From: Crambe crambe | Lineage: Eukaryota > Porifera > Demospongiae > Poecilosclerida > Crambeidae | NCBI GenBank assembly: GCA_963924555.1 | Contig: OZ004583.1 | Span: 7,888,582 to 7,952,581 of the forward strand | Length of the DNA stretch: 64,000 bases | Direction of reading: 5' to 3' | In this document: positions 42,600 to 61,306 of the stretch, one piece after another | How positions within the stretch are numbered: position 1 is the first letter of the stretch | How the letters are laid out: each line of letters begins with the position of its first letter | Translations under genes and position numbers: made by a program | The notes under the pieces: generated by a model | Seen by the model: only the letters and a program-made list of their open reading frames with translations | What the model was told of the DNA's origin: nothing | Databases searched by the model: none

Positions 42600-43975
42600 G
42601 GTTAGACTACACTGTCGAGGGAGGGGGGAAGGGTTAGCCAAAGAGAGATGTTGCCCCGCCACAGAGCTATGGCCAGGCGGCCAAAGAGATGGTGAGAAGT
42701 GGTGACAGGGTCTGTGGAGCAGGACCTATCTGCGATGGCCCGGCTGATGGTGGAGATGGTGTCCTCGGCAAGGCCCCAGAGCGTCTCAGCCACCAAGGGG
42801 ACACAAAGTCAGTCCCAGATGAGCGGCAGGCTGAGAGGTTGGAGGCAAGCTTGCATCGGACATCAACTTGCAGGGCATGGCCGGGGGTGAGGGCAGCCTT
42901 GTTACAAAGTCAAAGTTCATTGCAAAGGCCCAGTGGGTATATTGAGTACAGAATTAAAAATAGGAGTTCAGAAAATAGGTTAGCCTAAAGAACACAGGTA
43001 GTTGAGTCAGAGTCAGTGACTAATGATAAAAATTTGTTACTGCTGTAGGGGCTTCTTGCATGACTGCTGAGAACGTGAGATAAGAGAGAGTCTCTTGGAA
43101 AGTCCTCCTCCTCTATGCAGCACATGATGTTATACTCAATTGACGGCTTCGCTGAGAGGTCATGCTTCCATAAGTAGGCACTTAGCTGTGCCATTTGCTG
43201 GCAAAACTTCCCCCTCAATCTTACACTCAGGGTTGTCAATGTTGTTACTCTGGGCAATCTCGCATTTATACGGTTTAGTTTGAGAAAACTGTTAGAGGTG
43301 AAGTTGACTACATACTTCCAAGACCTGTTCCTGGAGTGAGGATGCGGAGGTGGCAAGGGTTCATATATCATCGGCGTGCAGGTACGCACCACTGTATAGA
43401 TTGTTAATTCATATTGAGCCCCAGGCATGAAGACTCCAGTGTCTTTAAGGAGTGAGTCCATCGCAGGGTTGGTGATAGAATTGATCCCTGGCGGACTCCT
43501 CTTTCAATAGGGAAGATGTAGATGAGGTACCATCCACGTGAACAAAGCATGCTCCATCTACATACCAGTTCCTGATAAGTCTCCATGTTTTCCTGTTAAC
43601 ACCAATGGAGAATAGCCGGTCTAACAACACTGGGAATTCAACACTGTTGAAGGCTTTCTGCAGGCCGAACAGACACATATGCACAGTGGAGCCATCACTG
43701 ATGTACCTAGCAATGATCTCCTGGGTTGCAAAGATTGAATCAGTGCAGCCAGTGTACTTATGGAAAGCAGACTGGTTTATATGAGGAAAGCTGATTTCCG
43801 TAAGGTTTGTTTCCATTCTTGACAGGATCAGGATCTCCAGGACTTTGGAGAAAACTGTGATAGTTTGTGGTGAGGAGAGGGTCTTTGCCACCCCCTTTAG
43901 ACTGGACAAATTGAACCTAGTTTGAATGTTGATGGTATCTCTTCCATCTCCCATGCCCATGACATGACAATGCAT
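42600..43975 (-). pseudogene. Decayed non-LTR retrotransposon reverse transcriptase
   Basis: On the minus strand from 43975 downward: VFSKVLEILILSRMETNL, then INQSAFHKYTGCTDSIFA, LFGLQKAFNSVEFPVLLDRL, then after a frame change FPIERGVRQGSILSPTL (about 43460-43510), and then AYLHADDI with the catalytic ADD at 43367-43375, immediately followed by a stop. These are fingers/palm motifs of a LINE-type RT. A later frame (about 42985-43300) covers the thumb side, and related sequence continues to about 42600. The usual Asp of LQKAFD is Asn here. At least two frameshifts and one stop make it inactive. It borders the receptor array directly. Confidence 0.85.
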
Positions 43976-43976
43976 A

Positions 43977-43992
43977 TGCGCGCATGCGCGCG
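43977..43992. promoter_or_regulatory. CG-rich palindromic motif before receptor copy 1
   Basis: TGCGCGCATGCGCGCG lies 67 nt before the copy 1 start codon. It contains the same GCATGCGCGC core found just upstream of copies 2 and 8. Promoter role inferred. Confidence 0.5.
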
Positions 43993-44058
43993 ATATGTGT
44001 AAATTGGGTAAGGAAGGGTACGCCGCACTGTGCCCTAGACTGGACTGGACTCGATCTC

Positions 44059-45878
44059 ATGATGCTGAGAAAAATGCTTAGTCTAGTAGTCACTCTTCTT
44101 TCTTTTTGTAGCTTAACAGATTCAGTGGCACTAAATTGTTCTCCAATATTAAATTCCACATCATCTTGTCCTGGAAACAAGTTCCACTGTGAATGCCAAT
44201 CAATTGGTTTTCTTAACTGGAGGTTTAACCAGTCAATGTTAGGATTTTCCACTGGTGGTGCATGCAACACAATGACTAACTTCTTTTCTGGTATTGAAGT
44301 GATCCTGTGCAGTAGTAGGAGATTTACTAGTACAAGTCCAGTCACAATCATTTCTTCATTCAACGTGACTCTTACGAACACACTTTATGTCGAATGTAGC
44401 AGTAATGAAAATCGCAGCATTCATCTTCATTTACCAAGTGAGCAAAATAAGCTAGTTTCATTAGCTACGTAGCTAGCTAATCAAAATCCATGGTTCAAAT
44501 TTTGCGTAGGTCCTCCATCACTTCCCAGAAACTTTAGCATAACTAAAACGGGAAGTGATAATAATTCCTTCATTGTGAGACTGCAGTGGGACCCTCCCCT
44601 GGATGATGGTGGAGCAGCCATCACTGGTTATCAGATCTTTATCAACTCATCTGAAGTATTGCATCAAGTGGTCAGTAATGACACTGAGACCACCATTGCC
44701 AGCCTGAATTCCACTGGAGAATGCTTCATACGAATAAGAGCCATCAACTGTATTGGGATTGGTTCAAATTTATCAGTCTCAATCAATATCACAGGTATCT
44801 GCACAGCCAGAATAAATAGCTAGTTAGCTATTAGCTATAGGGCTTTTTAATTATTATTATAGATCCTTGTGAACCACCACTCAACAGTTCCCTCCCCGTT
44901 GGACTTCACATTGTGTCTGTGGAGAGAGATCTCTTAGTTTTCCAATGTGAAGAGGGACTAGTCCCACAGGAGACAGTAATGGCGACATGTCAACCAGATG
45001 GGACCTGGAACCCTGACCCTCTTAACTATTCCTGTGACGTAGTGCCCACCAGAATAGGTTAGCTATTAGCTGGTTAACATGCCCTCACGGTAAGAAAATC
45101 ACATGGTGTTAACATAATGCTAACACTTCAGTGTAAAGGGTGATTAACATAAGTTGCCAGAGCAGGAAGTTATAATTATTGTACTAGCTAGTTACCAATA
45201 GAGTTTGTATCCACTACAGAGTCTATGACTTATGTAGCTACACATTATCCTGTAGCCTATGAGGCCATAAAGCTGTGCTTCACCTCTAATGTAATTAACT
45301 TTTGATCATGAGTATTGAAGAGGATCTGTTGTGACTGATTCAGATTGTGGTCCTCCAGTCTTATGTCAGCTGAGAAACAATGATTCCAGTACCAGGGAAG
45401 GGACCACTGTGTCCTTCCAGTGTGATGAGAGATTGCTCCCCTGTGCTAGTGAAGTCACAGCAGTTTGTGTTCATGGTGGGTGGGAGGTATTGAGCAGTTC
45501 ATTCACTAGTAAGTATTCCATCACTATTACAATGGATACCTTAATCCTTTCTGTTATAGCTATAAACTTTGATTTATCACAATCACTCCAGCAACAATGG
45601 ACCTACCATCTCCATTGAGTACTTCCTCCATCATTGCAATAGTTGTACCTATATCACTGGTTGTTTTTGTCTTGCTGTACACATGTGGACTAGTGACTGG
45701 AATGTTTATTCAACGAAGGATCAGTAGGCCCCATTCAGATCTCCAAACAAGGTCACATGATCTCCCACAGTCCACTGTAGCTGCTCAACTAGTTCCAGAA
45801 TATGAAGAAGTTTCTCTTTCCACAAAAATTGAGCTACAAGAAAATGTTTCCTATGGACCTGTAGGCTCTAAGTCTTAG
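44059..45878 (+). CDS. Receptor copy 1: N-domain, FN3, CCP x2, TM, Tyr-motif tail
   Basis: Five exons: 44059-44437, 44510-44794, 44863-45057, 45344-45508, 45592-45878; 436 aa, every junction in phase 1. Residues 1-22 are a signal peptide (MLSLVVTLLSFCSLTDSV). The class-B N-terminal domain (to about 126) has LNCSP and CPGNKFHCECQ. The FN3 domain (127-221) has LQWDPPLDDGGAAITGYQIF. CCP1 (222-286) has four Cys and PDGTWNPDP. CCP2 (287-341) starts DCGPPVLCQL but lacks the final Cys. A TM helix follows (about 355-378, SIIAIVVP onward), then a tail with PEYEEVSLS and the ITIM-consensus VSYGPV near the C-terminus. Many N-glycosylation sites. The start MMLRKML was chosen because a signal peptide follows; an in-frame ATG exists at 43984. 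A cell-surface receptor is inferred; no ligand is known. Confidence 0.85.
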
Positions 45879-46019
45879 ACAATTAATATCATGGCAATTA
45901 TTATTACAGTAATCAATGTTACTGTATGTACAAATGAGTGTTATCACCATGACCAGTATAATTATATCAATTCACATAATTTCACATTCAGTTCTGGGTG
46001 TCTAGTATATCAATTCACA

Positions 46020-46090
46020 TTCAGTTCTGGAATAGGAACTAGATTAGCTAGTTAGCTAGTAGATTTAGGAGCATGCGCGCGCAACAACCC
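46020..46090 (+). promoter_or_regulatory. Shared 5' flank of class-A receptor copies
   Basis: TTCAGTTCTGGAAT (46020-46033) and then GCATGCGCGCGCAACAACCC (46071-46090) precede copy 2. The same pair precedes copy 4 (49054-49067 and 49079-49100) and copy 8 (59592-59605 and 59638-59654). The order and spacing (about 30 to 50 nt) are kept. A core promoter role is inferred. Confidence 0.55.
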
Positions 46091-46102
46091 ATGCGAGCGA
46101 AG

Positions 46103-47701
46103 ATGCTGTATTTAATGGTTCTAATAGTACTTCTTTGTAAATTATCAGAGTCAACTATATTAGAATGTTCCAGTACTTGTCCTGGAAACGAGTTTCACTG
46201 TGAATGTCAAGCTTCTGATGTTCTGAGGTGGAGAGTTATGCTTCCTGATGGCACATCATGTAGGAGATACTATCCTGATAACGAAGACACTTTAGGCACT
46301 TGTCAGGCAGCAAGTGTGATACTCTCTAACCAAGACAATATCAATTTCACTTCAAGCCTCAATATAAACCTAACAAATCAGGCAATTGTAAGTTGTGAAG
46401 GTTTTGATGGAACTAAGAGACTGACTCTAAATGCAACAAGTAAGTAGCTATCATTACTCACGCTGTACAATTCTTCATGTGTCATGATAAATATATATAC
46501 ATTCAGGCCCCCCTTCATCTCCGATGAACTTGAACTTCAACTTATTAAATGGTACGAGTGTAAGATTCCAATGGGGCCCTCCTCTGGACAATGGTGGAGC
46601 ACCCATCACTGGTTATCAGATCTTCATCAACTCATCTGAAGATGTATTAGCAACACATGAAGCAACCATTGTCCTGAATTCCACTGGAAAATACTTCATA
46701 CATATAAGAGCCGTTAACTGCATTGGTGTCGGCCCAAGTTTATCAGTATTGATAAATATCACAGGTATAGCTATACATAGCCAGATTTAAAGTGAATAGG
46801 AGGCTTCTATTATAGATCCTTGTGAACCACCACCCAACAGTTCCCTCCCTGTTGGACTTCACATTGTGTCTGTGGAAAGAGATCTCTTAATTTTCCAATG
46901 TGAAGAGGGACTAGTCCCACAGGAGACAGTGATGGCGACATGTCAACCAGATGGGACCTGGAACCCTGACCCTCTTAACTATTCCTGTAACAGTCATACT
47001 ACTACTGAAGATATTGCAGCTAGTAATCACACTACTACAATTATTTCATGTGAGTGAATAATTTTAATTGCTGTCATCTAACAGTGGAAATACCACACTA
47101 AGTTGATATTCCTGTGAAAATGGAACAGGTTGGCTGTAGCTGCAAAGCTACTGGTCAATATGCCTCCCTCATGATGAGATAATCATGGAGTTTAGAAAAC
47201 AACACTTTTGTTACGTTATAGCTAGTTGTACGTAATAATTGAACATTAAACACATCTGTACCCACTTGATATACTATAATCTCAGTTTACTACATGTACA
47301 AAGAACAAGAAAAAGTTGCTAAAAATACTGAGAAGCTCATTTCACTAGGAAGTAGCTAGAAAGATGTGCTCTAGCTGTTATAATTATTCATCCCAATCAC
47401 TCCAGCAACAATGGACCTACTACCATCTCCATTGAGTACTTCCTCCATCATTGCAATAGTTGTACCAACATCACTGGTTGCTATTGTCTTGCTGTACACA
47501 TGTGGAATAGTGACTGGAATATTTATTCAACGAAGGATCTGTAGGCTCCATTCAGATGACTCACATCTCCAAACAAGGTCACATGATCTCCCACAGTCCA
47601 CTGTAGCTGCTCAACTTGTTCCAGAATATGAAGTTTCTCTTTCTACAAAAATTGAGCTGCAAGAAAATATTTCCTATGGACCTGTGGGCTCTAAGTCTTA
47701 A
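46103..47701 (+). CDS. Receptor copy 2: class-A N-domain, FN3, one CCP, TM, tail
   Basis: Four exons: 46103-46439, 46507-46764, 46816-47049, 47406-47701; 374 aa, phase 1 throughout. The start MLYLMVL matches the copy 8 start; in-frame ATGs at 46073 and 46091 would add residues before the signal peptide. The class-A N-domain contains CPGNEFHCECQ and VLRWRVMLPDG. FN3 has FQWGPPLDNGGAPITGYQIF. The single CCP is followed by a Ser/Thr-rich linker (HTTTEDIAASNHTTTI) in place of CCP2. The TM exon gives DLLPSPLSTSS, a helix, then the tail PEYEVSLS (one Glu fewer than other copies) and ISYGPV. Between CCP and TM (about 47260-47395) is a degenerate match to the candidate extra exon of copy 5, with its donor mutated. 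Confidence 0.84.
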
Positions 47702-47739
47702 GTCCTTTTCATGTTAATAGTCTAGCTAGACTACTTATG

Positions 47740-47742
<3 letters not shown>

Positions 47743-47774
<32 letters not shown>
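47743..47774. repeat. Poly-T tract between copies 2 and 3
   Basis: T run just after CTAGACTACTTATGC. Equivalent tracts in the same flank lie at about 52846-52880 (after copy 5) and 57079-57119 (after the orphan TM exon), so they mark a duplicated unit. Confidence 0.85.
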
Positions 47775-47821
47775 CGATTTTGAGAAAAGCAAGTTCTTAA
47801 TCAAACTTATGTGTGTATAAA

Positions 47822-48992
47822 GGGTATCCATCACCTCCAAGTAATCTAATGCTGGCTTAAATGATTCCACAAAAGCCATTGTAGGACTACAGTCTGGATG
47901 ATGGTGGAACAGCCATCACTGATTATCAGATATTTGTTAACTCATCTGAAGTAGCTATTACATCAAGTGGTCAGTAATGACACTCAAGCGACCAGTGTCC
48001 TGAATTTCACTGGAAAAAATAAGAGCCATCAACTGCATTGGAGTCAGTTCATACTCAGTTCCCATCAATATCACAATTACAGGTAGCTATCTATATTATC
48101 CCAATTTGATGTCAGGATGTCATGATTCTTGTGAACCACCTACAAATAGTTCTCTTCCTGTTGGACTTAATTCACATTGTGTCGGTGAAAAGACGTCTCC
48201 AATGTGAAGAGGGACTATAGTCCCACAGGAGACAGTGATGGCAATATTATGTCAACCAGATGGGGCCTGGAACCCTGACCCTCTTAACTATTCCTATGAC
48301 TTACGTAGTGCCCACCAGAAACAGGTTATCATAGCTGCCAGCATAATAATCAATGGATAGCACTACACTGCTAGTAACTATTGCAGTACCTGCAAGCTAT
48401 GAGGTCATAATGAGATTAACTCTGTTTTACAGCTTCCCCTCCATGATAGCTAATGCAATTAACTTTGATTATGTTGTGACTGATTCAGATTGTGGTCCTT
48501 TGATCTTATGTCAGCTGAGAAACAATAATTCCAGTACCATGGAGGGAAGAGACTACTGTGTCCTTCCAGTGTGATGAGGGATTATTTTCATCTGCTAGTG
48601 AATTAAGTCACTACAGTTTGTGTTCATGGTAGGTGGGAAGTATTGAACAGTTCATTAGTAAGTATCATCTGTTATACATAAACCATTAATTTTATCCAGC
48701 AACAATGGACCTAGCTACTACCATCTTCATTCAGTATAGTACTTCCTCCATCATTGCAATAGTTGTACCAACATCACTGGTTGTTATTGTCTTGTTGTAC
48801 ACATGTGGACTAGTGACTGGAATGTTTATTCAATGAAGGATCTGTAGAGATGACTCACATTTCCAAACAAGGTCACATGATCTCCCACAGTCCACTGTAC
48901 TGTATCTGCTCAAATATGAAGAAGTTTCTCTTTCCACAAAAATTGAGCTGCAAGAAAATGTTTCCTATGGACCTGTGGGCTCTAAGTCTTAA
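47822..48992 (+). pseudogene. Receptor copy 3, pseudogene
   Basis: FN3 (about 47825-48080), CCP1 (about 48128-48325), CCP2 (about 48488-48660) and TM/tail (about 48705-48992) are all recognisable in order but broken. The FN3 core lost the WDPP segment and the frame. CCP1 has frame-shifting insertions (ACTATAGTCC, GCAATATTATGTC). CCP2 has GGAGGGAAGAGACTACT and GAATTAAGTC lesions. The TM exon carries TTCAATGAAGG, converting the Arg-rich stop-transfer into a stop. No N-terminal exon is present; a poly-T tract sits in its place. Sequence is closest to copy 7 in FN3 and CCP1 (SSYSVPINITIT). Confidence 0.88.
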
Positions 48993-49130
48993 TAACCGGT
49001 CCTTTTTTACTACCACTATTGCATATACGTGACCAATATCACTTCACATCACATTCAGTTCTGGAATGGGAAACTAGCGAATGCGCGCGCGTAGCAACCC
49101 GAGGATCTAGGAGCTAGCTAGCTGGAAAAG

Positions 49131-50786
49131 ATGCTGTTAGTGTATTTAATGTTTCTAATATTTCTCTGTAAATTTTCGGAATCAACTATATTAGACTGTT
49201 CCAGCACCAGGTCTTGTCATAGAAACGAGTTTCACTGTGAATGTCAAGCTTCTGTCAATCTGAGATGGGCTGTTACGCTTCCTGATGGCCCATCATGTAT
49301 GAAACAATATATACCTGCTACTGCAACTAATAATGTTGGTACCAGAATGCCTCTAGACACTTGCCAGGCAAGTGTGATACTCACTAGCCTAATCATGAGC
49401 AATTTCACTTCAAGCCTTGATATATTCAACCTAACAAATCAGACAATTGTAAGTTGTCAAGGTATCGATGGAACTAAGACACTGACTCTAAATACAACAA
49501 GTAAGTGAATTATTCACTGTATATGTGCTTTAGTTTTTCATCATGTGTCATGATTTGTAGCCTCCCCTTCATCTCCAATGAACTTGAACTTCAGTTTATT
49601 AAATGGTATGAGTGCAAGACTGCAATGGGACCCTCCCCTGGACAATGGTGGAGTACCAATCACTGGTTATCATATCTTCATCAACTCATCTGAAGATGTA
49701 TTAGTCAGTAGTGACACTGAAGCAACTATTGTCCTGAATTCCACTGGCGAATACTTCATACGAATAAGAGCCATCAACTGCATTGGTGTTGGTTCTAATT
49801 TATCAGTTTTGATCAATATCATAGGTTATTAGATTTGTGATGTTATAGCTACAGCTTACATGTAAAAAAAATTTTTCGTAGGTCCTTGTGAACCACCTAC
49901 AAATAGTTCTCTCCCTGTTGGACTTCACATTGTGTCGGTGGAAAGACGTCTCTTAGTTTTCCACTGTGAAGAAGGACTAGTCCCACAGGAGACAGTGATG
50001 GCGACATGTCAACCAGATGGGACCTGGAACCCTGACCCTCTTAACTATTCCTGTGACGTAGTGCCCACCAGAACAGGTTATCATACGTAGCTGCCAGTAA
50101 CTGTAATATTAATCCATGGATAATACACTGTCTATCGTATAGCTAGTAAGCTATACTGTCTACCTGCAAGCTATGAGGCCATAGCTAATAAGATTAACTC
50201 TGTTTTACAGTTTCCCCTCCATTGTAATGCAATTAACTTTGATCATGTTGTGACTGATTCAGATTGTGGTCCTCCAGTCTTATGTCAGCTGAGAAACAAT
50301 AATTTCAGTACCAGGGAAGGGACAACTGTGTCCTTCCAGTGTGGCGAGGGATTACTTTCCTCTGCTAGTGAAGTCACAGCAGTTTGTGTTCATGGTGGGT
50401 GGGAAGTATTGAGCAGTTCATTCACTAGTAAGTATTCCATCATATGGCAATAGCTCTATATCTTTTCTGTTACATAAACCATTTATCCAGCAACAATGGA
50501 ACTACTACCATCTCCATTGAGTACTTCCTCCATCATTGCAATAGTTGTACCAACATCACTGGTTGTTATTATCTTGCTGTACACATGTGGACTAGTGACT
50601 GGAATATTTATTCATCGAAGGATCAGTAGGCTCCATTCAGATGACTCGCATCTCCAAACAAGGTCACATGATCTCCCACAGTCCACTGTAGCTGCTCAAC
50701 TAGTTCCAGAATATGAAGAAGTTTCAAAAATTGAGATGCGAGAAAATGTTTCCTATGGACCTGTAGCTATAGGCTCTAAGTCTTAA
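49131..50786 (+). CDS. Receptor copy 4: class-A N-domain, FN3, CCP x2, TM, tail
   Basis: Five exons: 49131-49500, 49561-49824, 49882-50076, 50263-50427, 50491-50786; 429 aa, phase 1 throughout. Signal peptide MLLVYLMFLIFLCKFSES. The N-domain has CHRNEFHCECQ (Pro-Gly of the class motif changed to His-Arg) and LRWAVTLPDG. FN3 has LQWDPPLDNGGVPITGYHIF and ends NIIG. CCP1 has the four Cys and a PTRTG end. CCP2 lacks the last Cys. The tail is the short form, PEYEEVSKIEM, with VSYGPV; the two tyrosines are 14 residues apart rather than 17. The 5' flank carries the shared promoter words. Confidence 0.85.
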
Positions 50787-50844
50787 CAATTATTATCACT
50801 GTATGTACAAACCATTGAATGTCATCACCATGACCATGTCTACC

Positions 50845-51003
50845 AGTAGCTACATCAATTCACATAATTTCACTTTCAGTTCCGATGACCATAGCCGAGC
50901 TGTGAAGGTAGGAAAAGATGCAATGATTCTATATCCATATCAGAGTCAACCATATTAAGTTACTGTTCCATATAGTACTGACTATTAATATTATGGTTCT
51001 GCA
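50845..51003 (+). pseudogene. Relic of a class-A promoter and first exon
   Basis: Between copies 4 and 5 the sequence ATCAATTCACATAATTTCAC...CAGTTCCG, then GAGCTGTGAAGGTAGG and AAAGATGCAATG...CAGAGTCAACCATATTAAG resembles the class-A 5' flank and signal-peptide exon (compare GCTGTGAAGATGCTG and AAGTCAACTACACTAGACTG in copy 8). It is frameshifted and truncated. It suggests that copy 5 once had, or lay beside, a class-A first exon. Confidence 0.5.
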
Positions 51004-51198
51004 CGAGAAAGCCACTAACACGGTATACGATCACTATGTATGCGCAAGCCAGGCTCGCCCCACATGCAATTTGCATTCTGCAACAAAGGGTTGGGCTAAA
51101 AGAGTACTGTAACTTACTTCCTGCCGGTACTCCAGCCGCAGGGCCTAGGGAAGTTCATACAAAATAATAGTTCATTGACACGCGTGAGGGAGCCTGAA

Positions 51199-52804
51199 AT
51201 GTTTAGTGTAGTAGCTGCAGCAGGTCTTCTTACTTTATGTAATCTGGCAGAGTCAGCGACACTAAACTGTTCTCCAACGAACTCCATTTGTCCTGGAACT
51301 GAGTTCTACTGTGAATGTCAAACTTTTGGAGCTTTGGAATGGACTCTCAACCAGAGCGTTTTAATAACTTACCTTGTAGGTAACTGTGGAGGAAGCTCAT
51401 CTTCAGCGATAATTCAAACGATCCTGTGCAGACATGTAATTAAGAATGACTTGGCAAGTCTTACTTCCAGTTTCAATGTGACTATTATGAGAAGTACTCT
51501 AGATGTAAAGTGTCGAAACACTACGACATCAGCAATGCTCACGATTCATCCACCAAGTAAATTTAGCTAACTAGCCTATACATTAATGCATTGATATGCA
51601 TGCAGGTTCCCCATCATCTCCTACAAATCTTACTTTCCTTATATTAAATGAGAGTGATAATTCCATAAGTGTGAGACTGCAATGGGATCCTCCCTTGGAC
51701 AATGGTGGAGCACCCATCACTGGTTATCAGATCATCTTCATCAACTCATCTGAAGATGTATTAGTCAGTAGTGACACTGAAGCAACCATTGTCCTGAATT
51801 CCACTGGAGTATACTTCATACAAATAAGAGCCATCAACTGCATTGGTGTCAGTTCTAATTTATCAGTCTCGATAAATATCACAGGTATATTCATAGCCAG
51901 ATTTGAAGTATATAACTGGATAGGAAGTTTCTATTATAGATCCTTGTGAACCACCCAACAGTTCCCTCCCTGTTGGACTTCACATTGTGTCTTTGGAAAG
52001 ACATCTCTTAGTTTTCCAATGTGAAGAGGGACTAGTCCCACAGGAGACAGTGATGGCGACATGTCAACCAGAAGGGACCTGGAACCCTGACCCTCTTAAC
52101 TATTCCTGTGACAGTCATACTACTACTGAAGATATTGCAGCTGGTAATCACACTACTACAATTATTTCATGTGAGTAAATAATTTTAATTGCTGTCGTCT
52201 AACAGTGGAAATACCACCCTAAGTTGCTATTCCTGTGAAAATGGAACAGGTTAGCTATAGTTGTAAAGCTACTGCTCAGCATACCCCCCTCATGGTGAGA
52301 AAATCATGGAGTTTAGAAACAACACTCCTGTTGTAGTTGTAACAATTGTCCCACATCCATACCCAGTTGGTACCATAAGCTACGTAATAGTATTTTCATG
52401 CTTGAATACACGAAGAACAAGAAAAAGTACCTCAGAAGCTCATTCTACTAGTAAGTAGCTGATAAATATTCCATCACTCTGTTATATTTATCCCAATCAC
52501 TCCAGCAACAATGGACATACTACCATCTGCATTGAGTACTTCCTCCATCATTGCAATAGTTGTACCAACATCACTGGTTGTTATTGTCTTGCTGTACATA
52601 TGTGGGCTAGTGACTGGAATGTTTATTCCACGAAGGATCAGTAGGCCCCATTCAGATGACTCACATCTCCAAACAAGGTCACATGATCTCCCACAGTCCA
52701 CTGTAGCTGCTCAACTAGTTCCAGAATATGAAGAAGTTTCTCTTTCCACTAAAATTGAGCTGCAAGAAAATGTTTCCTATGGACCTGTGGGCTCTAAGTC
52801 TTAA
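51199..52804 (+). CDS. Receptor copy 5: class-B N-domain, FN3, one CCP, TM, tail
   Basis: Four firm exons: 51199-51556, 51606-51884, 51940-52170, 52506-52804; 388 aa, phase 1 throughout. The start MFSVVAAAGLLTLCNLAES is a clean signal peptide; an in-frame ATG at 51175 adds eight residues. The N-domain is class B like copy 1 (LNCSP, CPGTEFYCECQ, LEWTLNQSV). The FN3, single CCP and Thr-rich linker (HTTTEDIAAGNHTTTI) are like copy 2. The CCP lacks one Pro of the CEPPP start. A possible extra 114-nt phase 1-1 exon lies at 52337-52450 between CCP and TM. The tail is the long form, PEYEEVSLS then VSYGPV. The mixture of a class-B head on a copy-2-type body is the clearest sign of exon exchange in the array. 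Confidence 0.84.
52337..52450 (+). other. Candidate extra phase 1-1 exon in copy 5
   Basis: Acceptor TGTTGTAG at 52329-52336 and donor GTAAGTAG at 52451 enclose 114 nt (38 codons), open in the array's phase 1 frame. It encodes VTIVPHPYPVGTISYVIVFS then CLNTRRTRKSTSEAHS. It sits where other copies have CCP2. It may be a truncated CCP-like piece or an alternative juxtamembrane segment. Transcript data are needed to know if it is used. Confidence 0.35.
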
Positions 52805-52922
52805 TAACCAGTCCTTTTCATGTTAGTAATCTAGTCCACTTATGCTTTTTTTTTCTTTTTTCTTCTTTCTTTTTTTTTTTGGTTTTGTGAAAGCAAGTTC
52901 TGGATTATGATTATGTGTATAT

Positions 52923-53418
52923 CTAATTAAGGCTCCAAGTAATCTATAGCTGGCTTCCATCACATTAAAAAGCCACTGTGAGACCTTCCTCGGAGCAACC
53001 ATCATTGATTATCAATTCATCTGAAGTATTGCATCAAGTGGTCAGTAATGACACTGATGCCTGAATTCCACTGGAAAATTCTTCATACAAATAAGAGCTA
53101 TCAACTGCATTGGAGTCAGTTCAAACTCAGTTCCCATTAAATAAGGGTAGACAGTACCATAAAAAGTAAAAATTTTTAAACGTCCATATCTTCATTATGC
53201 TACCCCCTATAAGCTTGATTTAGGTGTCAAAAGAGAGCTCTCTTTGAGAGCTTTCCAATAGTGTACTTAGTTACAACTTTACACCCCCACCCCCCATATA
53301 TGTAAGACCTGACATGACCAAAAAATTCTTTAAAATTACCACATACTTAGGAGGCCTTTGATACTCCTATCATAGCTTCTATGGGCCTAGCTGCTTTAAG
53401 TGAGCCATGGGATTTCAA

Positions 53419-53449
<31 letters not shown>

Positions 53450-54478
53450 ATGGTTCCAAATATATGAAGGGAGATGTAAAAAAATGACGCTTTTTTCACA
53501 TTTATTTGGAACTAGGCCTCCTAAGTATGTGGTAATTTTAAAGAATTTTTTTAATTTCTGAAGTCATGTCAGGTCTTCCATATATGGGGGGGGGGGTGTA
53601 AAGTTGTAACTAAGTACACTATTGGAAAGCTCTCAAAGAGAGCTCTCTTTTGAGACCTAAATCAAGTTTATAGGGGGTAGCATAATGAAGATATGGACAT
53701 TTAAAATTTTTTACTTTTTATGGTACCGTCTACCCATATCACAATAAACATGTCAGTTAATTTAGATTCTTGTGAACCACCTACAAATAGTTCTCTCCCT
53801 GTTGGACTTCACATTGTGTCAGTGGAAAAACGTCTTATAGGTTTCCAATGTTCCTGTGATGCCAGAACAGGTTATCATAGCTGCCAGTGCCAGTGAAGCT
53901 GTAATATTAATCCATGGATAATACTACACTGTCTATTGTACAGCTAGTAACCTACTGCAGTACCTGCAAGCTATGAGGCCATAATGAGATTAACTCTGTT
54001 TTACAGTTTCCCCTCCATGGTATAATGCAATTAACTTTGATCATGTTGTGACTGATTCAGATTGTGGTCCTCCAGTCTTATGTCAGCTGAGGAATCAATA
54101 ATAATTTTAGTACCAGGGAAGGGACCAGTGTGTCCCTCCAGTATGACGAGGGATTACTAGTGAAGTCACTGCAATTTGTAGGTGGGAAATATTGAGCAGT
54201 TCATTCACTAGTAAGTATTCCATCACAGATTCATTCTGTTACATAAACCATTGATTATATCCAGCAACAATGGATGTACTACCATCTGCATTGAGTACTT
54301 CCTCCATCATTGCAATAGTTGTACCAACATCACTGGTTTTTGTACTGGTTTTTGTACTAGTTCTGGAATGTTTATTCCACGAAGGATCAGTAGGCTCCAT
54401 TCAGATGACTCACATCTCCAAACAAGGTCACATGATCTCCCACAGTCCACTGTAGCTGCTCAACTAGCTCCAGAATAG
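52923..54478 (+). pseudogene. Receptor copy 6, pseudogene split by an inserted element
   Basis: FN3 remnant (52930-53142) has lost its WDPPLDDG core and the frame. A 591-nt inverted-repeat element (53145-53735) sits in its 3' end. CCP1 (about 53766-53875) has its middle deleted. CCP2 (about 54057-54210) has insertions and a deletion. The TM exon (from 54265) has part of the helix replaced by repeats of TGGTTTTTGTACT and ends prematurely at PE, where the tail tyrosine motif is lost. No N-terminal exon; a poly-T/poly-pyrimidine tract precedes it, as for copy 3. Confidence 0.88.
53145..53735. mobile_element. MITE with long (about 225-bp) terminal inverted repeats
   Basis: Ends are GGGTAGACAGTACCATAAAA and its near-complement TTTTATGGTACCGTCTACCC. 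The arms (about 53145-53370 and 53508-53735) pair over most of their length, including AGAGAGCTCTCTTTGAGAGC. A run of about 30 G lies near the centre (53420-53448). No coding capacity. The flanking duplication could not be fixed, as only ATA/TA is shared. Confidence 0.88.
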
Positions 54479-54701
54479 AACAGCTTACTTATTTGTAGTT
54501 TCATGCTTAGGTATGTACCATGCTATCCTACCAAGTTAAATATGATAATTTGTGTAATACAGCTCTTCCTTCTGCTATTACACAAATTAGACGAATTAAA
54601 AGGACTTGGATGGAGACTGGTTCGCTAGAGTTATATTTCAGGTAGAGCTAGCTAGCTAATTACATGCTGACTACATTGTTTGATGCCTACAGGTTCCACA
54701 G

Positions 54702-54918
54702 CAGTGTGTGGACCAGTCAGTCAATTATACTGTGTTGATAACGGACAGAGATGAGAATACCATTGCTTCCCAGGGTCCCACAGTACACATGGGAAAAGAA
54801 CAAGTGGAGGAAGATATCTCAGAAGGACTATTAGAGAGGAACCTAACCTATTGGATTCAGGTTGAGGCTGTGACATCTATGCCTGAAGGAAGGAATTTAT
54901 CAGAAAAGTTGATGATTG
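54702..54918 (+). other. Orphan FN3-like exon
   Basis: An open segment follows a CAG acceptor (54693 or 54702 are both possible) and ends at a GT donor (54919) in phase 1. It encodes VNYTVLITDRDENTIASQGP and later LERNLTYWIQVEAVTSMPEG, the typical C-to-G strand pattern of a fibronectin type III domain. It is unlike the FN3 of the array copies, and its 5' phase (0) differs from the array rule. Its phase 1 exit could splice to the orphan TM exon at 56712. Either a fragment of another receptor or a remnant exon of a degraded copy. Confidence 0.5.
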
Positions 54919-54926
54919 GTAGTTAG

Positions 54927-56700
54927 CTAGCTAATAATTTTAAAAAACCAGAATTTATGATGATAAAAATTATTTCATAGATAGCTACACGCTTCAATAT
55001 GGATGCAACTTATAGCAATGACAATAAAAGTATAAGTAAGTTAAATCTCTTGATTGCTAATTGCTACTGAAGACAGATCAACACTTGTTATTATAAGAAA
55101 ATTCTTGGGAAAATTAATGCCTGATGGATTGTGATATCAGGTAATTTGTTTTTCTATTACAAAGATACACAGCAAATGCATTCCAGTCATGTAATTCACT
55201 AAGGCAATATGTGCAACATTTAGACAGCAAGCGAGTGAGTAGCTTAATTGAATTGCTATTCCTTTTCAAACTTCTAACATGTGTTCCAAACTTAGTCAAG
55301 TCAAGAGTTATGGTGAGCCAAAGGGCAAAAAATTGAATGCATCTAATATTAATCTTGACTTCTACATGGATACCATTTTACTGTGTGTGTAGCTATTGGG
55401 AGAATTCGAATTTAGTGTGTAAATTTTCTAGTTTTCTAGTACACACTAGCTATTGGGAGAATTCAAATATAGTGTGTACACAGCAAAAACAGAATTGCTA
55501 TTTCAATAAACATGAGTGGTACGCAAGACTAATCATTGTTGAAACAACCAAACAGTTTGTTATATTCACCAAAAATATGTTGTCATTTTGACAGATTTCA
55601 AATGATTAATCTCACCTAACTAAGTAGATTTGTTAAAATAACAATTTCGTTTTTGCAGTGTAGATTTTCTAGTACACACTTTCTTTTTTACAGCACATGA
55701 AAGTGTTTACTGCAACTGTCACATAAAAGTGATAGCGAAAAGACTATATACAGTCATCTGAACCCTTCTGAACTTGAATTTGTTGTTGAAAATTAAGAGT
55801 AAACTGAACATATTAATGCAGCAATCTGCTCTATAGATATATCCTTGGAAATAGACCAGTTCAGGAGGGTTTATTGTCATATACACTAGTGTCTGAGACA
55901 TAGCATTAGAGACAGTTATCCAATGGCTATCTTTGTGACATTAATAATCTGTACAAATTTCCCTCTCTCAGTGCTATATATTAGGTTTACACCTCCATTT
56001 TTGGGTATTTCTTCTTCTCTTCTTTTCTTTACTGTTGGTGATACACTTGACCTCCTATGTAAGGATTCTGCTATAACTCAATTCCACTACTTTATTCTTT
56101 CCAGTAGCTTCAGCTATCAGACTTCAATTAATGCCTTTCTTTGAATGACAATGTTGGAAGAGCCCTCCGGATACTTTTTTTCAAGTGTATAAGAGATACA
56201 TGTAGCTTGAGCTGCCATTGTGATCATCAATATGCGATATACAGCAGCAATAGGCCACATGATGTGGACATTCTATGTTGACATAGGAGAAAATATCATG
56301 CTTTTTTGGTCCGGGGATCGAATTTTACACCGAACCGAATATTTTCCACTTGGTAGCCCATGAATAGATTTTCAGTTCTAGTATTTTCATGCTCAAATTG
56401 CATCATAATCTTGATCATTATATCTACATAATAGCTATAGCAGCTCAATCGATCATTCCATGATCCACTAGCTAGCTAGACTAGATATTCTATAACAAGG
56501 CCATGGAAACCACTCCTGCCAATCAGGCTATGGCCTGACCAATATTTTTGCACTTCAGTAGTAGCCAAGTTAATCCAACTGCATATGGTTTTAACTTTAC
56601 CAATTTTGTATTCTCATGACATTACCAATCTGCAAATCCTTCCCATAGCCCTGTAGCTAATGATGTTCTCCATTATAATTATCTTTGATTTAGCTATCCC
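54927..56700. other. Gap in the array, mostly non-coding
   Basis: No receptor exons are recognisable in 1.8 kb. A short direct repeat (AGCTATTGGGAGAATTC followed by AATATAGTGTGTA) occurs at about 55392-55425 and 55448-55485, with GTGTACTAGAA-type complements near 55675. This interval replaces the extracellular exons that would be expected before the TM exon at 56712. Confidence 0.5.
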
Positions 56701-56711
56701 AATCACTCCAG

Positions 56712-57013
56712 CAACAATGGACCTACTACCATCTCATTCTGCATTGAGTACTTCCTCCATCGCAATAGTTGTACCAACATCACTGGTTGTTATTGTCTTG
56801 CTGTACACATGTGGACTAGTGACTGGAATGTTTATTCAACGAAGGATCTGCAGGCTCCATTCAGATGACTCACATCTCCAAACAAAGTCACATGATCTCC
56901 CACAGTCCACTGTAGCTGCTCAACTAGTTCCAGAATATGAAGAAGTTTCTCTTTCCACAAAAATTGAGCTGCAAGAAAAAGTTTCCTATGGACCTGTGGG
57001 CTCTAAGTCTTAA
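56712..57013 (+). pseudogene. Orphan TM/tail exon
   Basis: A complete terminal exon (acceptor ACTCCAG, stop at 57011-57013) encodes the standard DLLPS...STSS helix and tail PEYEEVSLS, VSYGPV, GSKS, with a small HSA insertion. It has no upstream FN3 or CCP exons of the array type. The 3' flank (CCTTTTCATGC...poly-T) matches copies 2 and 5, so it is the remnant of a one-CCP-type gene. It would be functional only if spliced to a distant exon such as 54702-54918. Confidence 0.7.
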
Positions 57014-57079
57014 TAACCAGTCCTTTTCATGCTTCATGCTAATAGCTAGTAGTCTAGCTCTTTTTTTGGTTTTGATTTC

Positions 57080-57120
<41 letters not shown>

Positions 57121-57178
57121 ACGGAAATAATGAACTTTGACCCCAACATGAAGCGCATGCTCATAATAATTAGTAGAA

Positions 57179-59006
57179 ATGTCAAGCTTGAAAGCTGCTG
57201 TTTTGCTTCTTTCCATCCATTTGACAGGATCGGTGACGTTAAATTGTTCTGCTTCAAATTTCACAGGGTGTCCAAGAAAAGCGACCTGTCAGTGTCAAAC
57301 AGACCCTAACATCTTTCTCTCCCTCAGTGTCACTTCAAACGATGGCTCCACACTCATAGATAGATTGACTGCTGATACTAGTGGCATGTGTAATAGAGAT
57401 AAAATAATGTCTTCAGATATAGGAGGTGTTATTTGTAGAGTGAATGAAAACAACTCCGAAGAAATAAGATTTGTTGTGAATGTGACAAGTACACTCACAG
57501 TTGACTGTAATGGTCTTACACATATTCTTCATCCACTACGTAAGTAGTACTAGCTAACTATAGGCTGAGGAGTAGCTACCATTAGGGCAATTGGGACACT
57601 TGTCCTAGTGAAATTTCATGGGAACAAAACTGTTTAGTATAACTGAAAATGGGTGTGGTCAGCAAGAAGTGCATGGCTAATTTTTTGCCCCACCAAATCA
57701 TGAATTCTAGCTACTCCTCTGTTAAATAGCTTATGTGAAAAGCAAGTTCTTGATAAATTATGTGTATATTTAAATTAAAGGTCTTCCCTCACCTCCAAGT
57801 AATCTAATGCTGGCTTCCAGCACATTAAATGATTCCACAAAAGCCACTGTGAGACTACAGTGGGACCCTCCTCTGGATGATGGTGGAGCAGCCATCACTG
57901 ATTATCAGATATTTGTTAACTCATCTGAAGTATTGGATCAAGTAGTCAGTAATGATACTGATGCTAGCATTGTCCTGAATTCCACTGGAGAATACTTCAT
58001 AGAAATAAGAGCCACAAACTGCATTGGTGTCAGTTCATACTCAGTTCCCATCAATATCACAATTACAGGTATCTATATTTTCCCAATTTGATATCAGTTA
58101 ATTTCTATTATTATTATTATTATAGATTCTTGTGAACTGCCTACAAATAGTTCTCTCCCTGTTGGACTTCACATTGCGTCAGTGGAAAGACGTCTCTTAG
58201 GTTTCCACTGTGAAGAGGGACTAGTCCCACAGGAGACAGTGATGGCAACATGTCAACCAGATGGGACCTGGAACCCTGACCCTCTTAACTATTCCTGTGA
58301 CATAGTGCCCACCAGAACAGGTTATCATAGCTGCCAGCGAAGGTAGCTGTAATATTAATCCATGGATAATACTACACTGTCTATTGCAGTACCTTGCAAG
58401 CTATGGGGCCATAATGAGATTAACTCTGTTTTACAGCTTCCCCTCCATGGTATAATGCAATTAACTTTGATCATGTTGTGACTGATTCAGATTGCGGTCC
58501 TCCAGTCTTATGTCAGCTGAGGAACAATAATTTCAGTACCAGGGAAGGGACCACTGTGTCCTTCCAGTGTGACGAGGGATTACTTTCCTCTGCTAGTGAA
58601 GTCACAGCAGTTTGTGTTCATGGTGGGTGGGAAGTATTGAGCAGTTCATTCACTAGTAAGTATTCCATCACTATGGCAATAGCTCTATCCTTTTATTACA
58701 TAAACCATTTATCCAGCAACAATGGACGTACTACCATCTGCATTGAGTACTTCCTCCATCATTGCAATAGTTGTACCAACATCACTGGTTGCTATTGTCT
58801 TGCTGTACACATGTGGACTAGTGACTGGAATATTTATTCATCGAAGGATCAGTAGGCTCCATTCAGATGACTCACATCTGCAAACAAGGTCACATGATCT
58901 CCCACAGTCCACTGTAGCTGCTCAACTAGTTCCAGAATATGAAGAAGTTTCAAAAATTGAGCTACAAGAAAATGTTTCCTATGGACCTATAGGCTCTAAG
59001 TCTTAA
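57179..59006 (+). CDS. Receptor copy 7: class-C N-domain, FN3, CCP x2, TM, tail
   Basis: Five exons: 57179-57539, 57781-58068, 58126-58320, 58491-58655, 58717-59006; 432 aa, phase 1 throughout. Signal peptide MSSLKAAVLLLSIHLTGS. The N-domain is strongly diverged (class C): LNCSASNFTGCPRKATCQCQ with no clear LxW, then GGVICRVNE and LTVDCNG. FN3 (LQWDPPLDDGGAAITDYQIF, ending INITITG) and CCP1 (DSCELPTNSS) are of the type seen in pseudogene copies 3 and 6. CCP2 and TM are standard. Tail short form, PEYEEVSKIEL then VSYGPI rather than GPV, a conservative change in the ITIM position. It is the only open copy of this lineage. Confidence 0.85.
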
Positions 59007-59137
59007 TAACCAGTCCTTTTCCTTTTAATATCATGGCAATTATTATCAATGTTACTGTATGTACAAATGAATGTCATCACCATGACGAGTATTATTCACA
59101 TAATTTTCTGGATGACCAGTATATCAATTCAATCACA

Positions 59138-59151
59138 TTCAGTTCTGGAAT
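59138..59151 (+). promoter_or_regulatory. Promoter relic before the second orphan TM exon
   Basis: TTCAGTTCTGGAAT with TAGGAATTAGATTAGCTAGT repeats the 5' flank of copy 2, but no GCATGCGCGC motif or first exon follows. The next array sequence is directly the TM exon at 59245. Confidence 0.5.
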
Positions 59152-59244
59152 AGGAATTAGATTAGCTAGTTAGCTACGTAGTAGATTTAATAATGATGTT
59201 CTCTGTTAGCTATTATCTTTGATTAGCTATCACAATCACTCCAG

Positions 59245-59511
59245 CAACAATGGACCTACTACCATCTCCATTGAGTACTTCCTCCATCATTGCAATAGTT
59301 GTACCAACATCACTGGTTGTTATTGTCTTGCTGTACACATGTGGACTAGTGACTGGAATATTTATTAACCGAAGAATCAGTAGGCTCCATTCAGATGACT
59401 CACATCTCCAAACAAGGTCACATGATCTCCCATAGTCCACTCAACCCTCTTTCCACAAAAATTGAGCTGCAAGAAAATGTTTCCTACGGACCTGTGGGCT
59501 CTAAGTCTTAG
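59245..59511 (+). pseudogene. Orphan TM/tail exon with a stop
   Basis: It is an array-type terminal exon preceded by ACTCCAG, with helix intact (DLLPSPLSTSS). It reads CATGATCTCCCATAGTCCAC, creating a stop where others have CAG. A deletion removes the AAQLVPEYEEV segment. The last part, including VSYGPVGSKS, survives out of reach. No upstream exons. It represents a receptor gene collapsed between its promoter and last exon. Confidence 0.85.
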
Positions 59512-59678
59512 ACAACCAGTCCTTTTACTATCATGGCAATTATAATTTCATTTGTATATACATTGATGACCATGTTTCACATTCTGACATATTCAGTTCT
59601 GGAATGGGACGCTAGATTAGACAAGATTAGACAAGAGCATGCGCGCAGCAACCCACCGCTGTAGCTAGAGCTGTGAAG

Positions 59679-61306
59679 ATGCTGTATTTTATAATACTTC
59701 TAGTATTTCTCTGTAAATCGTCAAAGTCAACTACACTAGACTGTTCCAGGACCAGGTCCTGTCCTGGAAACGAGTTTCACTGTGAATGTCAAGCTTCCTT
59801 TGTTCTGAGGTGGACTGTTAGGCTTCCAGATGGCATGCTGTGTATGAATGAATATGGTCGTGGTTATGCTGTTGGTGTGAGAGAGCCTTTAGATACTTGT
59901 CCAGCAAGTGTGATACTCTCTAACCAAACCAATAACAATTTCACTTCGAGCCTTGACATCAACCTAACAAATCAGACAACTGTAAGTTGTCAAGGTATAG
60001 ATGGAACTAAGACACTGACTCTAAATACAACAAGTAAGTGAATTATTCACTGTATGCTTTAGTTATTCATCATGTGTCATTATTTATAGCCTCCCCTTCA
60101 TCTCCAATGAACTTGAACTTCAGCTTAAATGATAGGAGTGTAAGACTGCAATGGGACCCTCCCCTGGACAATGGTGGAGTACCCATCACTGGTTATCAGA
60201 TCTTCATCAACTCATCTGAAGATGTATTAGTCAGTAATGACACTGAAGCGACCATTGTCCTGAATTCCACTGGAAAATACTTCATACAAATAAGAGCCAT
60301 CAACTGTATTTGTGTTGGTTCTGATTTATCAGTCTCTATCCATATCACAGGTACATACATTACATTAACTATAGCTTACATGTAAATTATTTCATATAGA
60401 TCCTTGTGAACCACCACCCAACAGTTCCCTCCCCATTGGACTTCACATTGTGTCTGTGGAAAGAAATCTCTTAGTTTTCCAATGTGAAGAGGGACTAGTC
60501 CCACAGGAGACAGTGATGGCGACATGTCAACCAGATGGGACCTGGAACCCTGACCTTCTTAACTATTCCTGTGACATAGTGCCCACCAGAACAGGTTATC
60601 ATAGCAGGTTGCTACATAAGTATAAGCTTGTATCCATGGAGAGTACTACACTGTCTATTGTAATAGGACTGTGTGCAATAGCTACACATAATCATGTAGT
60701 CTATGAGGCCATAATGATATTATCTTCTGTTATACTGCTTCCCCTCCATGGTAATGCAATTAAATAACTTTTGATCATGTGATAGACTCAGATTGTGGTC
60801 CAGTCTTATGTCAGCTGAGAAACAATAATTCTAGTACCAAGGAAGGGACCACTGTGTCCTTGCAGTGTGACGAGGGATTGCTTTCCTCTGCTAGTGAAGT
60901 CACTGCAGTTTGTGTCAGTGGTGGGTGGGAAGTATTGAGCAGTTCATTCACTAGTAAGTATTCCATCTACGATCATGAATGATTAATCTTTTCTGTTATA
61001 TAAACCATTTATCTAGCAACAATGGACATTCTACCATCTCCATTGAGTACTTCCTCCATCATTGCAATAGTTGTACCAACATCACTGGTTGCTATTGTCT
61101 TGCTGTACACATGTGGACTAGTGACTGGAATATTTATTCAACGAAGGATCAGTAGGCTCCATTCAGATGACTCACATCTGCAAACAAGGTCACATGATCT
61201 CCCACAGTCCACTGTAGCTGCTCAACTAGTTCCAGAATATGAAGAAGTTTCAAAAATTGAGCTGCAAGAAAATGTTTCTTATGGACCTGTAGGCTCTAAG
61301 TCTTAG
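59679..61306 (+). CDS. Receptor copy 8: class-A N-domain, FN3, CCP x2, TM, tail
   Basis: Five exons: 59679-60033, 60090-60350, 60400-60594, 60792-60953, 61017-61306; 420 aa, phase 1 throughout. Signal peptide MLYFIILLVFLCKSSKS. The class-A N-domain has CPGNEFHCECQ, VLRWTVRLPDG and VSCQGIDGTKTLTLN, and is closest to copy 4. FN3 has LQWDPPLDNGGVPITGYQIF, with NCICVGSD carrying an extra Cys. CCP2 starts DCGPVLCQL, one Pro fewer than its sisters (a 3-nt deletion). The TM exon uses a TCTAG acceptor instead of TCCAG. The tail is the short form PEYEEVSKIEL with VSYGPV. It is the last complete copy. Confidence 0.85.

Follow-up and report, generated by a model that had tools for sequence, protein, structure and literature searches.

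A tandem family of putative recognition receptors with variable heads and ITIM-like tails in the sponge Crambe crambe

The receptors with which sponges tell self from non-self, or sense microbes, are to our knowledge poorly known. The question arises here from a stretch of 64,000 nucleotides of the Crambe crambe genome (GCA_963924555.1, contig OZ004583.1, positions 7,888,582 to 7,952,581; hereafter the window), which carries a tandem array of genes for membrane proteins with FN3 and sushi (CCP) domains at window positions 44059-61306 on the plus strand. A sequence-only reading had taken the array for an undescribed recognition receptor cluster in a non-bilaterian animal. The host is indeed one, a demosponge. 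A search for silicatein, a sponge marker, gave 35 matches; in six loci inspected out of 12, the active-site motif could be read in four, two of them overlapping, and had Cys each time, which was uninformative since the genes are split by introns. The comparisons reported below make it fairly probable that these genes form a diversified recognition receptor family signalling via phosphotyrosine; microbial recognition appears to be the likelier use, and allorecognition a possible one. The analysis covers one haplotype of 143,139,886 bases in 119 contigs, in which the window is C5:7888582-7952581; the alternate haplotype assembly is GCA_963924525.1.

The array contains six intact genes, two pseudogenes and two lone last exons, which are given here in window coordinates. 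The outer limits of the pseudogenes and fragments are our own reading of repeat-family and tail-search output.

44059..45878, plus strand: gene A, intact, five exons (44059-44437, 44510-44794, 44863-45057, 45344-45508, 45592-45878); type-II N-terminal domain (N-domain), two CCPs, spliced translation without stops, fn3 and Sushi matches.
46103..47701, plus strand: gene B, intact, four exons (46103-46439, 46507-46764, 46816-47049, 47406-47701); type-I N-domain, one CCP and a Ser/Thr stalk, with YEVS as the altered first tyrosine motif of the tail.
47893..48994, plus strand, limits approximate: pseudogene 1; remnants of FN3, CCP1, CCP2 and the transmembrane (TM)/tail exon with frame breaks and a TGA; repeat families D14, D15, D17, D3 and D7; tail match at C5:7937316-7937570 with one TGA.
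49131..50786, plus strand: gene C, intact, five exons (49131-49500, 49561-49824, 49882-50076, 50263-50427, 50491-50786); type-I N-domain, two CCPs, exon 1 modelled by AlphaFold.
51199..52804, plus strand: gene D, intact, four exons (51199-51556, 51606-51884, 51940-52170, 52506-52804); type-II N-domain, one CCP and a Ser/Thr stalk.
53003..54478, plus strand, limits approximate: pseudogene 2; remnants of FN3, CCP1, CCP2 and a truncated TM/tail exon, from repeat families; tail match at C5:7942940-7943068 with one TAG.
53141..53739, no strand: inverted-repeat element inside pseudogene 2; 599 bp, 154-nt arms that are 95% complementary and 291 nt apart (repeat I1).
56712..57013, plus strand: lone TM/tail exon with an open frame, from repeat families and the tail search; no upstream exon recognised.
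57179..59006, plus strand: gene F, intact, five exons (57179-57539, 57781-58068, 58126-58320, 58491-58655, 58717-59006); the most divergent N-domain, two CCPs.
59245..59513, plus strand: lone TM/tail exon, disrupted by one TAG and one deletion; repeat families D1 and D7; tail match at C5:7947828-7948025 with one TAG.
59679..61306, plus strand: gene G, intact, five exons (59679-60033, 60090-60350, 60400-60594, 60792-60953, 61017-61306); type-I N-domain, two CCPs.

All six open copies gave stop-free spliced proteins (436, 374, 429, 388, 432 and 420 residues), and their introns were GT-AG and phase 1 throughout. Together with the repeat families and the tail search, these translations bear out the six open copies, two pseudogenes and several fragments on the plus strand that had been read from the sequence. 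The five-exon model proposed at the same time holds, with canonical splicing, for A, C, F and G and fails for B and D, which have four exons. An exon 4 that starts at an upstream acceptor and has extra N-terminal residues was rejected by eye, as the acceptor TTCAG or CTCAG followed by ATTG preserves phase 1 in each of the four window copies that have a second CCP; alternative frames through exon 5 were likewise judged by eye to be chance. Around the genes, an open frame on the minus strand (43448-44056) resembles RVT_1 over residues 67-175 (~43532-43858), ~200 bases upstream of copy A, at an E-value (E) of 3.7e-4, below the cut-off. The inverted-repeat element contains a long G run, and an exon-like frame at 54684-54926, possibly part of another gene, has a weak PTP_tm match (E 0.0053, below the cut-off).

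The array does not end at 61306, where the sequence-only reading had closed it. Searches with the tail and N-domain exons showed that it runs on past the window, which holds one end of a family spanning ~640 kb. The TM/tail exon matched 20 places at E <=5e-16, all at C5 7.934-8.450 Mb, of which 15 lack stops and 10 lie inside the window (hand counts). N-domain exons occupy 23 places at C5 7.93-8.57 Mb, some partial or broken (hand count), and two N-domain matches fell elsewhere, a partial one of 49 residues on contig C18 (E 0.005) and another, with E 0.88, at C5:7.68 Mb. Among matches to E 0.01, FN3-exon relatives above 50% identity fell only within C5 7.93-8.57 Mb. Eight loci outside the window were modelled, and six of them (H, I, J, K, M and N) are complete intact genes, which brings the intact copies to 12, with lengths of 371-436 residues and phase-1 introns in the window and outside copies alike. 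Splice sites of the outside copies were chosen by a scoring script, and the end of exon 2 in copy I is uncertain; locus P was modelled without exon 5, and was used in the type-I tests below just for the exons analysed there, and O0 was modelled without exons 1-2. A divergent minus-strand subfamily at C5:8.20-8.23 Mb (L035, L029-L032) has exons 1 and 2 in common with the main family: five of its six N-domain places are followed by an FN3 exon, and no CCP or tail exon was recognised in the sequence examined. The repeat families and both searches thus agree with the birth-and-death tandem family that had been suggested.

Each gene encodes a signal peptide, a variable N-domain, an FN3 domain, a CCP, a second CCP or a Ser/Thr stalk, a TM helix, and a cytoplasmic tail of 47-58 residues with two tyrosines. 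In B and D, a short Ser/Thr-rich stalk replaces the second CCP. Copies A and B were scanned with Pfam, and both matched fn3 (E 1.4e-7 and 6.5e-8) and, in exon 3, Sushi (E 3.1e-5 and 2.4e-5) over the cut-off; the second CCP of copy A (exon 4) stayed below it (Sushi, E 0.051), and FN3 in the remaining copies was assigned by alignment. In hydropathy profiles, 12 of the 12 intact models have a hydrophobic stretch at the N-terminus and a single strong TM segment, preceded by 10-15 N-glycosylation sequons. Pfam, alignment and hydropathy therefore support the signal peptide, FN3, one or two CCPs, TM helix and two-tyrosine tail as first described.

The N-domain had been called a variable Cys domain. 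It is variable, and it keeps its cysteines (five are invariant among 18 members), but the label is too narrow because an immunoglobulin (Ig) V-set-like sandwich is predicted for it. No Pfam family was found for the N-domain in copies A and B or in 18 N-domain exons, and hhalign shows homology between its types I and II (E 2.5e-14). For exon 1 of copy C, modelled with 18 sequences, AlphaFold returned a predicted local distance difference test score (pLDDT) of 87.4, a predicted template modelling score (pTM) of 0.77, and nine strands (20-25, 34-41, 44-49, 55-60, 72-74, 80-88, 91-98, 105-111 and 114-120). The second strand holds Cys36/38, the third Trp46 and the eighth Cys109; cysteines in the B- and F-like strands with a tryptophan in the C-like strand are the V-set pattern. 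Alignment A3 takes in five exon-1 sequences of the divergent subfamily (8.20-8.23 Mb).

Variation in the type-I heads is concentrated in a segment of 40 codons (residues 39-77 of copy C) that spans the C, C' and C''-like strands. The ratio of nonsynonymous to synonymous substitution rates (dN/dS) was 1.24 (confidence interval, CI, 0.74-2.04) in this segment, compared with 0.46 (0.25-0.84) in the framework and 0.33 (0.21-0.53) in the FN3 exon. The proportion of nonsynonymous differences (pN) was ~3x that of the framework at a similar proportion of synonymous differences (pS); the pN gap was reached in 0 of 5000 permutations, and the pS gap had p 0.29. The segment limits were chosen once the alignment had been seen, and the test of framework against variable segment omitted a 14-residue segment in between (dN/dS 0.81) and the signal peptide (0.60). 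In the per-domain dN/dS check put forward with the sequence-only reading, the head segment is elevated over framework and FN3, with no significant excess above 1. This contrast fits a diversifying binding face, short of proving positive selection.

Divergence falls steeply along the genes. Among the window six, synonymous divergence (dS, Nei-Gojobori) was 1.13 in exon 1, 0.42 in exon 2, 0.17 in exon 3, 0.16 in exon 4 (four copies) and 0.06 in exon 5, in agreement with the variable N-domain and near-constant TM/tail first noticed. Exon 1 is 42% identical between C and F, whose exons 3-5 reach 95-98%; for B and D the nucleotide identities are 53% (exon 1) and 97% (exon 3), and for K and M 47% (exon 1) and 96% (exon 5). 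In approximately unbiased (AU) tests on 12 genes, the tree of each partition was rejected for the others, with p-AU of 1.5e-46 for exon-1 data on the exon-3+5 tree, 8e-8 for 3+5 data on the exon-1 tree, and 6e-4 for exon-2 data on the exon-1 tree. The exon-1 partition in these tests was exon 1 only, and exon 1 of copy N begins two codons 5' of its ATG in the dS and AU analyses. The mosaic pairs and conflicting exon trees show that different heads have been placed on shared 3' ends, through recombination or gene conversion.

The tails carry exactly two tyrosines in all 12 intact copies. The second stands in the context ENxxY[GR]P[VI] and forms a strict immunoreceptor tyrosine-based inhibitory motif (ITIM; [SIVL]xYxx[ILV]) in 11 of 12, the exception being K with Ala at -2; Yxx[ILV] is matched by every first tyrosine but that of B (11 of 12). 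In K and M the linker is rewritten and PEYEEVSLST-IELQEN--YGPV is kept. The first motif, PEYEEV, presumably resembles an SH2 ligand. An immunoreceptor tyrosine-based activation motif (ITAM) was ruled out, as the two tyrosines are 14-17 residues apart and the spacing in ITAMs is shorter.

Vertebrate ITIM receptors, KIR among them, lie in tandem clusters and use SHP effectors. In searches for SH2 and Y_phosphatase, less than 1.9 kb of contig C18 proved to carry, in this sequence, SH2, SH2 and protein tyrosine phosphatase (PTP) domains. For the second SH2 frame the best PDB match is PTPN11/SHP-2 (E 1.3e-57), and the PTP frame matches receptor-type PTPs best and SHP-2 next. This gene is a probable SHP-2 orthologue, and the protein needed by an ITIM is therefore very probably encoded in the genome.

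SH2 and phosphatase domains also occur at other loci. I-set domains lie among Y_phosphatase domains at C9:2.62-3.41 Mb (at least dozens) and C13:3.54-3.87 Mb (at least 15), which suggests tandem arrays of Ig-type receptor tyrosine phosphatases. More tandem Y_phosphatase domains lie at C12:0.1-0.4 and 2.5-3.2 Mb, among the matches listed. At C5:1.418-1.656 Mb, 32 SH2-domain matches stand in tandem (hand count), an expanded SH2 cluster on the chromosome that carries the receptor family.

A similar tail occurs outside the family. The single tandem cluster described at first does exist on C5, but that description is too narrow, since the cluster is one of several with a similar tail: arrays with the pattern PxY[ED]x[VI]...EL[KQ][DE]NxxYG are also present on three further chromosomes (C3, C13 and C17). 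A tail at C5:2.414 Mb, reading YDDV...QIELKENVSYGPV, was reached from the family tail query at E 0.0018, and as a query itself it reached the C13 and C17 arrays at E ~1e-4. A C3 tail query matched 51 places at E <=0.01 (8 on C3, 34 on C13 and 9 on C17; hand count, self included, some with stops). Seven tails aligned from five places share invariant P, P, Y, E, L, N and Y. At the sampled C3 locus, Sushi was over the cut-off in L062 and just under it in L070, and Pfam made nothing of its FN3-like and Ig-like frames; at the sampled C13 locus fn3 passed the cut-off and the CCP-like frames found no Pfam match, and the sampled C17 locus has TM and tail only. Several arrays thus share the tail pattern, with a similar modular ectodomain in two loci (C3 and C13), a likeness of tails that may reflect either common descent or convergence. 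At C13:825.8-827.8 kb (L071 117-2108, minus strand), a frame of ~600 residues, transposon-derived by eye, continues without a change of frame into one of the TM/tail exons of the C13 array.

We propose that each gene displays one germline-encoded head at the cell surface, and that the N-domain, with its variation concentrated on the C-C'-C''-like strands, would bind a ligand carried by microbes or by other cells. Receptor clustering would let a Src-type kinase phosphorylate the tail, upon which pYEEV and the NxxY/ITIM-like NVSYGPV could recruit SH2 or phosphotyrosine-binding (PTB) proteins, SHP-2 among them. Since the tail is common and the heads varied, signalling would stay constant while specificity varies. 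Animals build immune or self/non-self receptors in this manner, with quickly changing outer domains over an almost uniform signalling tail. New specificities would come from duplication plus recombination or gene conversion that pairs different head exons with shared 3' exons, an exchange that the phase 1 of all introns may ease. The similar tail on other clusters suggests that one signalling route could be fed by several receptor arrays.

Several results weigh against parts of this proposal. The Ig identity of the N-domain depends on a single AlphaFold model, and the C-strand Trp is missing from copies F and N. Pfam ig matched 1 of 18 N-domains at E 0.48, and hhalign of the N-domain against 14 I-set domains of the same genome gave a non-significant E of 0.026, with FN3 (0.05) and CCP (0.10) as controls little worse. 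The best E in a PDB profile search with the N-domain was 0.068, and comparison with the N-domain of the C3 locus gave E 0.028 and a probability of 1.8%; an Ig fold was thus given no proof from sequence alone by any of these four routes. As regards selection, neither the variable segment nor the whole mature N-domain (dN/dS 0.80, CI 0.55-1.16) is significantly above 1. Among four window copies, intron 4 is 76% identical and the adjoining exon 5 96%, a difference that long conversion tracts do not explain. Exon 5 has dN/dS of 0.59-0.71 in five groupings, so its sameness reflects low total divergence, not strong protein constraint. Finally, the tail link to the other clusters is a chain of modest E-values: 0.0018 from the family (0.075 in reverse), then 9.5e-5 to C13.

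How the proteins might be used is a matter of degree. Recognition of microbes or symbionts, as thought for the expanded SRCR and NLR families of sponges, is the use to which we lean, tentatively and with less than even confidence. Sponge immune repertoires are large, and in the available text on Aplysina aerophoba an "FnIII domain and Sushi repeat-containing gene" is down at 5 h after microbial elicitors (PMC6208332), a gene that may be unrelated to the C. crambe family. That the array is an allorecognition locus, its N-domains telling self from non-self on contact and its ITIM-like tail signalling fusion or rejection, seems unlikely: a single cluster on one chromosome, decayed gene copies, exchanged heads and variable segments within the heads speak for it, as does a layout near that of the Botryllus fester co-receptors in the part of that report available (PMC12065747), but several unlinked arrays with similar tails exceed the needs of a single locus.

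Two further explanations were considered. The tail could be mainly an NxxY signal for PTB binding or endocytosis and the proteins uptake or adhesion receptors; NxxY is among the invariants of the seven tails, V, F or L may stand at +3 from the second Tyr, and copy K is not a strict ITIM, yet the strict ITIM in 11 of 12 family tails, the likeness of PEYEEV that we presume to an SH2 ligand, and the probable SHP-2 orthologue make this improbable as well. Ordinary tandem duplication of adhesion receptors under relaxed constraint, with nothing special in the head variation, would suit the pseudogenes and fragments and a variable-segment dN/dS that does not clearly pass 1. We find it quite doubtful, since framework and FN3 exon are under purifying selection next to a segment with ~3x the pN at similar pS, and 12 intact copies are kept.

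Within the open-access literature, subscription papers being outside its reach, no description of this C. crambe receptor architecture was found, and "undescribed" stands to that extent. The nearest described layout that we found is that of the fester co-receptors (FcoRs) of Botryllus schlosseri, which in the accessible part of the report have IgV, sushi and Ig domains, a TM segment, and ITIM, hemITAM or core YxxI/L/V motifs, measure 520-610 residues with two C2 Ig domains, are mostly paired with fester genes, and lie in polymorphic clusters (PMC12065747). Both sets are clustered type I receptors with a V-type head (predicted here), sushi, TM, an ITIM/YxxI/L/V tail and birth-and-death evolution. 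The sponge family differs in having FN3, which that part of the report does not mention, with one or two CCPs, no C2 Ig domain and 371-436 residues, and therefore we take it to work like an FcoR without classing it as one. No partner gene alternating with the receptor copies was recognised among the window open reading frames, where no fester sequence was compared.

Hydractinia Alr proteins are likewise clustered, germline-variable Ig-superfamily receptors with tyrosine motifs (PMC11999971; ITIM/ITAM, PMC12065747); in the accessible text their ectodomain is V-set/I-set Ig, with FN3 and CCP unmentioned, whereas the sponge family has a single predicted Ig-like domain ahead of its FN3 and CCP. 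Vertebrate ITIM receptors of the LILRB type, as far as the same source goes, share an Ig ectodomain (predicted here), a tail ITIM and gene clusters (PMC11999971), but their ectodomains are Ig-only and their tails differ, so that the likeness is one of layout and implies no homology. Sponge SRCR receptors, according to the parts of two papers at hand, also form large families joining FN3 and Sushi modules, with SRCR genes that have sushi or FN3 in another architecture than here (PMC6208332, PMC8242945); unlike them, the scanned exons of our family (copies A and B; 18 N-domain exons) yielded no SRCR domain.

A clustered family with variable heads, a constant tail, ITIM-like motifs and a probable SHP-2 orthologue encoded alongside in the genome provides concrete candidate receptors, and lets one ask if inhibitory phosphotyrosine recognition is older than the divergence between sponges and other animals. 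A wider claim, which we regard as possible but somewhat unlikely from these comparisons, is that sponges, whose lineage is one of the earliest to branch off among animals, run a multi-locus receptor system comparable to ascidian FcoRs or vertebrate natural killer (NK) receptors, with germline-diversified V-type heads, carried on FN3/CCP stalks, shuffled onto a bipartite phosphotyrosine tail that tandem arrays on at least 4 chromosomes share, and with SHP-2 and an expanded SH2 set as readers. If true, sponge allorecognition or immunity would here have the receptor arm that has long been sought.

Sushi domains also occur outside the receptor family, in dense arrays at C14:6.86-6.90, C15:5.83-5.89 and C11:1.2-1.26 Mb among the matches listed.

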